Notes under the pieces: model-generated
What the model was told of the DNA's origin: nothing
What the model saw: only the letters and a program-made list of their open reading frames with translations
Database searches by the model: none
Made by a program: the position numbers and the translations under genes
Source: Cellvibrio sp. 79
GTDB taxonomy: Bacteria > Pseudomonadota > Gammaproteobacteria > Pseudomonadales > Cellvibrionaceae
Assembly: GCA_003056245.1 (NCBI GenBank)
Contig: MVDH01000001.1
Location: 1,674,716-1,738,715, forward strand
Length of the DNA: 64,000 bases
Reading direction: 5' to 3'
In this document: positions 6,793 through 9,743 of the stretch, piece by piece
Layout: every line of letters starts with the position of its first letter
How positions within the stretch are numbered: position 1 is the stretch's first letter

Positions 6793-8267
<1,475 letters not shown>

Positions 8268-8324
8268 TGATGACGGGGGCGATATGTCGCTCCCGCCCCC
8301 TGTTTGCCGGGGCTAATAACAGAC

Positions 8325-8340
8325 AGGAGATAAGGCCATT
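8325..8340 (+). promoter_or_regulatory. mreC: Ribosome binding site and ATT start of mreC
   Basis: AGGAGA at 8325-8330 is followed after seven bases by ATT at 8338-8340. The frame is closed upstream by TAA at 8317. The spacing and the conserved protein segment that follows favour ATT as initiator. Confidence 0.75.
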
Positions 8341-9258
8341 AAACCGCTCTTTGCCCGAGGCTCATCCGCAACCAGTCGCGCTTTCCTGTTCATTGTGATC
8401 ATGATGGTGCTGGTGGTGGTTGGTCTCTATACCGACAAACTTGAGCCATTGCGCGAAAAACTGGCGCAATTGGTGACTCCTTTTTATCAAATCACGAATG
8501 TGCCCACCCGTGTAAATGACTGGCGTAAGGATACCTTTGTTTCCCAGGTTGATCTCAAAATGGAAAACGAGGCACTCAAAACCGAGTTGTTAATCCATCA
8601 GCGCAAACTTCAGCAGCTTGCATCATTAGCGGCTGAAAACGTGCGCCTGCGTCAGTTACTCAATGCTAGCCAGATGTTGCAGGATACAGTGCTGATCGCC
8701 GAGTTAATCGGCGTTTCGCCCAATCCGCTCAGCCATAAAGTGATTATTAACCGCGGTACTAAAGATGGCGCCTTCAAAGGCCAGCCAGTATTGGATGCGT
8801 TTGGCCTGATGGGGCAAGTTATCGAAGTGAGTGAAAACTCCAGCACGGTGCTGCTGATTTCCGATTCAACCCATGCGATTCCGGTACAAGTGAATCGTAA
8901 CGGCGTGCGTGCGATTGCTGAAGGTACTGGCGATTTGAATAGCCTGAGCCTGCGTCACGTATCTGCCAACACCGATATCCGCGCAGGCGATTTGCTGGTG
9001 AGTTCCGGCCTTGGGGATCGTTTCCCGGTGGGCTATCCCGTTGCGGAAGTACTGCAAGTGGTGCGCGATCCGGGCAAGGCATTTTTGACGGTGATCGCCA
9101 AACCTATGGCAAGACTTGATCGCAGCCGTCATTTATTGCTGGTGTTTGAAAATCGCGATCAAGCAAGTGTGCCCGGTGCGTTGAATGTAACGATTTCCTC
9201 GTCTTCTTCTATCTCCTCCAGCAGTTCCTCTGCCAGCTCACAGGGCGGGGCGCAATAA
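8338..9258 (+). CDS. mreC: Rod shape-determining protein MreC, apparent ATT start codon
   Basis: MreC is a bitopic inner-membrane protein whose periplasmic domain links MreB to the synthesis enzymes. From the ATT at 8338 the product is 306 residues: cytoplasmic KPLFARGSS, one membrane helix (about 17-36), a coiled coil (about 60-105), and the beta domain with VIINRGTKDGAFKGQPV and LLISDSTHAIPVQV. It ends in a poly-Ser tail. There is no ATG, GTG or TTG in frame between the stop at 8317 and a GTG at 8395. Starting at the GTG would cut off the conserved cytoplasmic segment and half the helix. KPLFARG aligns with MKPIFSRG of E. coli MreC with ATT exactly at Met1. A Shine-Dalgarno (AGGAGA, 8325-8330) is spaced correctly for it. 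Confidence 0.9.
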   Translation: MKPLFARGSSATSRAFLFIVIMMVLVVVGLYTDKLEPLREKLAQLVTPFYQITNVPTRVNDWRKDTFVSQVDLKMENEALKTELLIHQRKLQQLASLAAENVRLRQLLNASQMLQDTVLIAELIGVSPNPLSHKVIINRGTKDGAFKGQPVLDAFGLMGQVIEVSENSSTVLLISDSTHAIPVQVNRNGVRAIAEGTGDLNSLSLRHVSANTDIRAGDLLVSSGLGDRFPVGYPVAEVLQVVRDPGKAFLTVIAKPMARLDRSRHLLLVFENRDQASVPGALNVTISSSSSISSSSSSASSQGGAQ

Positions 9259-9743
9259 TGCCCGCCCAGTCCCTCAACCTGTATGTGATTATCGCGTTGA
9301 GCGTGTTGTTGGCGCTGGTACTTTCCGTATATCCATTACCGATGGATATGCGTTGGTGGCGTCCGGAATTTGTATTGGTAGTGGCAATTTACTGGATGTT
9401 CTTTATGCCGCTCACCGTAAGCTTCCTGTTTCTTTGCGCATTGGGTTTGTTTCAGGATTTGCTTGAAGGTGTGCCCTTTGGCCAGCACAGTTTAGGGTTG
9501 GTGATTGTGGGCTATATCTGCATTTTGTCTTATCAACGTGTACGCAATTTTTCGCTCTGGCGTCAATCGGCCTGGGTTTTTGTGTTAGTTGGTATCGCCC
9601 AGCTTACCGACAATTGGGTCCAGGGTATGGCCGGCCGGCCGCTGTCGGGGATTCAATTTCTTTATCCTGCACTAACCAGTGCGCTTATCTGGCCGTTGTG
9701 CTCTCTATGGCTGGATCGTTTAACCCATCGCCACCACCATTAG
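9258..9743 (+). CDS. mreD: Rod shape-determining protein MreD
   Basis: MreD (161 residues) is a polytopic inner-membrane member of the elongasome. About five hydrophobic helices are visible; the family segment FLFLCALGLFQDLLEGVPFGQHSLGL carries the conserved GxxxDxxxGxxxG(x)H pattern. Its ATG overlaps the mreC stop in TAATG, indicating translational coupling. It completes mreBCD. Confidence 0.94.
   Translation: MPAQSLNLYVIIALSVLLALVLSVYPLPMDMRWWRPEFVLVVAIYWMFFMPLTVSFLFLCALGLFQDLLEGVPFGQHSLGLVIVGYICILSYQRVRNFSLWRQSAWVFVLVGIAQLTDNWVQGMAGRPLSGIQFLYPALTSALIWPLCSLWLDRLTHRHHH

Follow-up and report, generated by a model that had tools for sequence, protein, structure and literature searches.

Where does translation of mreC start in Cellvibrio sp. 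79, and what would an unusual start codon mean for this gene? In the 64,000-nucleotide stretch of DNA analysed here (referred to as the window), mreC lies between mreB and mreD in a cluster with the order mreB-mreC-mreD that runs in one direction (Table 1). Its frame codes for an intact MreC, the product of which matched PF04085 with 141.9 bits (cut-off 28; E-value of 1.6e-41) and TIGR00219 with 205.7 bits (cut-off 92.75). Downstream of the TAA stop at 8317–8319, this frame reads CAG ACA GGA GAT AAG GCC ATT AAA CCG CTC TTT, and no canonical codon (i.e., ATG, GTG, or TTG) occurs in it between that stop and GTG 8395, just as the original prediction had it. The same prediction had matched ATT 8338 to the E. 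coli MreC initiator and had placed an AGGAGA motif seven bases ahead of it, and both claims held. More specifically, a phmmer search aligned residue 7 of the translated frame (i.e., the ATT) to residue 1 of the PDB 7eft chain, and mreC of E. coli K-12 (NC_000913.3) starts with ATG AAG CCA ATT TTT AGC CGT GGC. The gap of seven bases between AGGAGA (8325–8330) and ATT (8338–8340) corresponds to normal Shine-Dalgarno (SD) spacing, and the duplex energy with the anti-SD sequence, computed over the 20 bases upstream, was –7.4 kcal/mol at ATT 8338 vs. +1.5 kcal/mol at GTG 8395. On the sequence comparisons described here and below, it is very likely that mreC starts at the AUH codon (i.e., AUU, AUC, or AUA) itself.

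Table 1. Features of the mreC locus, in positions of the window.
Feature	Position	Strand	Basis or remark
mreB, first gene of the cluster, ATG start	7233..8267	+	sequence
In-frame TAA stop upstream of the mreC start	8317..8319	+	sequence
SD site AGGAGA of mreC	8325..8330	+	duplex energy –7.4 kcal/mol
mreC coding sequence (306 codons + stop), ATT to TAA	8338..9258	+	PF04085 and TIGR00219 matches
ATT, very likely start codon of mreC	8338..8340	+	homologous to residue 1 of E. coli MreC
GTG, first in-frame canonical codon in mreC, very probably not the start	8395..8397	+	duplex energy +1.5 kcal/mol
mreD, ATG overlapping the mreC stop by 1 base	9258..9743	+	sequence

A family-wide search matched 142 of 144 genomes, and the resulting tally covers 110 of these, with nine more read separately and 23 left out. 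The mreC start codon was ATT in 62 of the 110, ATC in 36, ATA in eight, TTG in three, GTG in one, and ATG in none, while the nine further genomes had ATT (6), ATC (1), GTG (1), or TTG (1). A separate collection of named loci, some assemblies of which may duplicate those in the family tally, had an AUH codon in all 33 (ATT 22, ATC 9, ATA 2), including Cellvibrio mixtus, Marinimicrobium, Exilibacterium, Pseudoteredinibacter isoporae, and Marinobacter caseinilyticus. Five of these 33 carried an additional canonical codon upstream in the frame of AUH (in part the Exilibacterium, Pseudoteredinibacter, and Marinobacter loci).

At larger distance, an MreC profile was matched in 389 of the 391 genomes searched for the order and in 250 of 276 for the class, and starts were read in 226 genomes outside the family (71 from the rest of the order and 155 from the rest of the class), mainly one per family. 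A strict class, defined by an aligned start that is AUH and is not separated from the upstream stop by any canonical codon, comprised 205 of 336 genomes and occurred at least once in 85 of 187 families (96/110 genomes in the family, 43/71 in the rest of the order, and 66/155 in the rest of the class). In another 25 genomes, AUH was accompanied by an upstream canonical codon (bringing the AUH total to 230), 36 had a canonical codon at the aligned start (ATG 27, TTG 6, GTG 3), and 70 either had neither kind of codon at the aligned position or an unreliable N-terminal alignment. In some of these 70, an AUH preceded by an SD lay one codon away and was followed by different residues, as expected if the start, rather than an isoleucine, is conserved. 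Of the 205 strict genomes, 18 had a canonical codon no more than 10 codons past the AUH. ATG was the mreC start of E. coli and other Enterobacterales-like loci (five genomes from two groups), and a search of the phylum returned only weak or partial matches outside the class. The ATT had originally been treated as a local oddity of Cellvibrionaceae; the ATT start stands, but the narrow scope does not, given that AUH recurs in 85 of the 187 families. Since the same AUH class is kept by many related gammaproteobacteria, the AUH start of mreC is a conserved feature among them.

Initiation at the AUH itself is further indicated by its upstream context. Of 206 strict loci, 152 had an SD-like match at a spacing of 3–10 bases (shuffled mean of 28, maximum of 42), as did 64 of 86 with one locus per family (shuffled mean of 12.6, maximum of 25; the Pseudomonas aeruginosa record was taken as one of the 86). 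As a control, the mreB starts in the same loci were canonical in 164 of 165 cases (ATG 154, TTG 6, GTG 4, none 1). An mreB match was present at 335 of 354 mreC loci, and the gap between mreB and mreC ranged from –15 to 435 bases, with a median of 67 (333 loci).

Translation from the downstream GTG 8395 would have in its favor that this is the first canonical codon of the frame, and that P. aeruginosa record CP123788.1 was annotated from a GTG of its own. However, such a start is very improbable, as GTG 8395 has no SD (+1.5 kcal/mol) and the protein sequence ahead of it is conserved, on which grounds it was rejected. In fact, variation in codons 2–5 and 8–10 of mreC was concentrated at the third base (in codons 6 and 7, all three bases varied), and since this applies to seven of codons 2–10, it indicates that the segment ahead of the GTG is translated. 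Moreover, the position of the first canonical codon downstream of AUH varied from index 2 to 67 over the genomes, with 14–16 being the commonest (90/206).

The P. aeruginosa record itself reads TAG GAG CGG ATC ATC AAA CCG CTA TTC around the mreC start, and its deposited annotation begins at a GTG located 16 codons beyond the second ATC, so that the annotated MreC lacks the cytoplasmic tail and much of the membrane helix. In the residue numbering of P. aeruginosa MreC given in a passage of PMC8137920, the tail and membrane segment together span only 14 residues, which is short for a membrane helix, and this numbering would seem to rest on the same truncated start. Misannotation of MreC may extend to further genomes. 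CP123788.1 (L331), although filed as a plasmid, is a P. aeruginosa mreB-mreC fragment of 1131 bases; another record filed as a plasmid, NZ_AP026896.1 (L503), is a 4.94 Mb record of Aeromonas caviae. In a named Aeromonas record, the corresponding stretch is without annotation.

Could the ATT then be an internal isoleucine codon, with the actual start lying upstream at a non-standard codon or with entry into the frame by frameshifting? The third base of AUH does drift synonymously, its usage (104:84:24) being like that of the isoleucine codons inside the same frames (1148:1053:220), i.e., what an internal isoleucine codon would show, and 160 of 212 strict loci have a canonical codon in another frame that runs across the AUH site. 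Any such codon is nevertheless missing in the other 52 of the 212 loci, which excludes frameshifting as a general device only. In addition, 16 of the 212 strict loci have an in-frame stop no more than one codon ahead of the AUH (with differing intervening codons), the SD spacing suits the AUH, and the codons that replace it in the 36 genomes with another start are ATG, GTG, and TTG. An upstream start or frameshift was therefore rejected on the combination of SD spacing, nearby upstream stops, and replacement codons, and is considered extremely unlikely.

Within the genus, 19 of 21 genomes were matched (the window's own counted, with two lacking a match), and the homologous mreC codon was ATT (13) or ATC (5) in all 18 others. 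The suggested check of aligning mreC starts over the family thus favored the ATT, with ATG absent from all 110 genomes and ATT or ATC in 18 of 18 congeners, and the main alternative offered at the time, i.e., a sequencing error by which ATG was read as ATT, is contradicted by these 18 relatives, has nothing found in its favor, and was rejected as having a negligible probability. In one same-genus genome (L017), an in-frame TAA is located one codon ahead of the mreC ATC, so that no standard upstream start is possible in that genome. A second mreC copy, with internal stops, was seen in a same-genus genome (L021, G008:C1:4701547-4702559).

Judged by sequence, mreC would thus join the AUH-initiated genes of the infC and pcnB kind, with no canonical start, an SD site, and conservation. 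It resembles E. coli infC in its AUH codon (AUU in infC), in the AAA second codon (in E. coli and here), and in its strong SD, but infC, unlike mreC, encodes the very factor that rejects its own start. To our knowledge, MreC has no part in translation, so that a direct feedback loop as for infC is not expected. Like E. coli pcnB, mreC would be a non-translation gene limited by an AUU start; in contrast to pcnB, mreC is a shape gene, and its AUH start recurs over many families. According to passages in PMC9410913, an AUU start is found in just two E. coli genes, infC being one of them, and the AUU start of pcnB in E. coli is there credited to Binns and Masters (2002). In the E. coli K-12 sequence, pcnB indeed starts at ATT. 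E. coli K-12 mreC shares the residue position of the start and the order mreB-mreC-mreD with the window, but has an ATG behind a weak SD (–3.0 kcal/mol). As such, mreC would be a third gene with this kind of start, central to cell shape and kept in at least 85 of the 187 sampled families, which suggests that AUH codons are a stably used control device rather than mere curiosities. Searches of a collection of open-access papers, judged by titles and term counts, yielded no link of mreC to a non-AUG start, with one review on engineered translation containing both terms once. The question raised is whether start-codon choice limits the dose of MreC and whether this dose follows IF3.

The SD strength of mreC differed with the start codon, the median energy being –7.1 kcal/mol for AUH (86 groups) vs. 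–3.0 kcal/mol for canonical starts (36 groups; p-value of 2.4e-10, from a statistic that ignores phylogeny), and only four of 213 AUH loci had an SD weaker than –4 kcal/mol. Such a difference was found neither in a control region 41–60 bases upstream (–2.5 kcal/mol for AUH and –3.3 kcal/mol for canonical starts) nor for the SD of mreB (–4.1 kcal/mol in both classes, with 41 and 19 families), indicating that the contrast belongs to the mreC site. Against a trade-off between codon and SD, ATG mreC starts had an SD energy of –6 kcal/mol or stronger in six of 36 cases, and the six TTG starts had a median of –7.4 kcal/mol. In two families that hold both kinds of start, the SD was about equally strong. 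A strong SD may simply be needed for a poor codon to work, and the simplest reading would be that selection keeps the product of codon and SD strength low.

Taken as a whole, the AUH start and strong SD probably constitute a conserved and deliberately inefficient start by which MreC output is held low. What the sequences offer for this is the codon and its conservation, the SD with its spacing, and the trade-off, and from them we infer a low MreC output, discrimination by IF3, and harm from excess MreC. The ordinary initiator tRNA would start mreC at AUU 8338 despite imperfect codon-anticodon pairing, which the strong SD site would make usable. With AUH codons being poor and rejected by IF3, as is established for infC, little MreC would be made per mreB-mreC-mreD transcript, and codon and SD would jointly set a low initiation rate, by AUH and a strong SD in many lineages and by AUG and a weak SD in others. 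For E. coli, parts of PMC7793260 cite about 180 MreC copies per cell and propose that the MreC-MreD balance determines PBP2 activity, while a reviewer printed with it regards the wider cells seen when MreC or MreD is overexpressed as a loss-of-function effect. These passages fit a need for a low, set MreC level.

The low-output explanation can be extended to control by the level of IF3, a link already suggested in the original prediction, in which case the MreC dose would track the IF3:ribosome ratio and thereby tie cell-wall elongation to the supply of initiation factor; this is conceivable, although we lean against it. IF3 discriminates against the AUU of infC (as stated in a passage of PMC9410913), and by the same biochemistry this discrimination should act on the mreC start, making the latter probably IF3-discriminated by analogy. 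Moreover, GTG and TTG, which are weak yet accepted by IF3, are rare at mreC (9/336, i.e., GTG 3 and TTG 6) vs. 230 AUH. The infC gene of the window's genome (L061, G000:C11) has an ATC start behind GGAGAT, with an in-frame stop six codons upstream and no canonical codon between, so that mreC and infC here both have an AUH, an AAA second codon, and a strong SD. On the other hand, the start types of the two genes are not linked. Among 29 genomes with an AUH mreC, infC was AUH-only in 24 and had a canonical codon in reach in five, whereas among 30 infC loci from 29 genomes with a canonical mreC, 15 were AUH-only, 12 had a canonical codon in reach, and three had neither; infC thus keeps AUH even where mreC has ATG. 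Furthermore, an ATG with a weak SD apparently does equally well in other lineages, and a fixed low output explains the trade-off between start codon and SD at least equally well. That mreC and infC form an IF3-sensed regulon, with an ancient AUH tying the dose of the elongasome activator to initiation factor, is a tentative idea that we rather doubt, and the same doubt applies to this regulon spanning much of Gammaproteobacteria, with E. coli and others having moved to AUG and a weak SD. The three infC loci with neither codon type (L477, L485, and L498) have no ATG, GTG, TTG, or AUH near the expected start, and other codons may serve as start there.

Alternatively, the AUH start might be a neutral relic that is kept by inertia and has no role, as could be suggested by its third base drifting as isoleucine codons do. 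This is unlikely, since a single change would give ATG, yet none of the 110 family genomes shows it. Passages in PMC5622118 likewise report a change from ancestral AUG to AUU in only one of 61,358 starts, and changes toward AUG as the frequent substitutions. In a tree of 120 MreC proteins (49 without a canonical start, 61 with one, and 10 undecided, under a looser label that applies to 208 of 336 genomes and takes in a few loci whose alignment misses the N terminus), 21 changes between AUH and canonical states were counted (shuffled mean of 36), of which at least six are forced by starred branches, with a resolution too poor for the ancestral state to be settled. Many sampled families have AUH starts and others have canonical ones, and an ancestral AUH start of mreC with repeated return to ATG seems likely.

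Finally, the stop codon of mreC (TAA, 9256–9258) shares one base with the ATG of mreD. Because of this overlap, mreD may be translationally coupled to mreC and be translated at the same rate.
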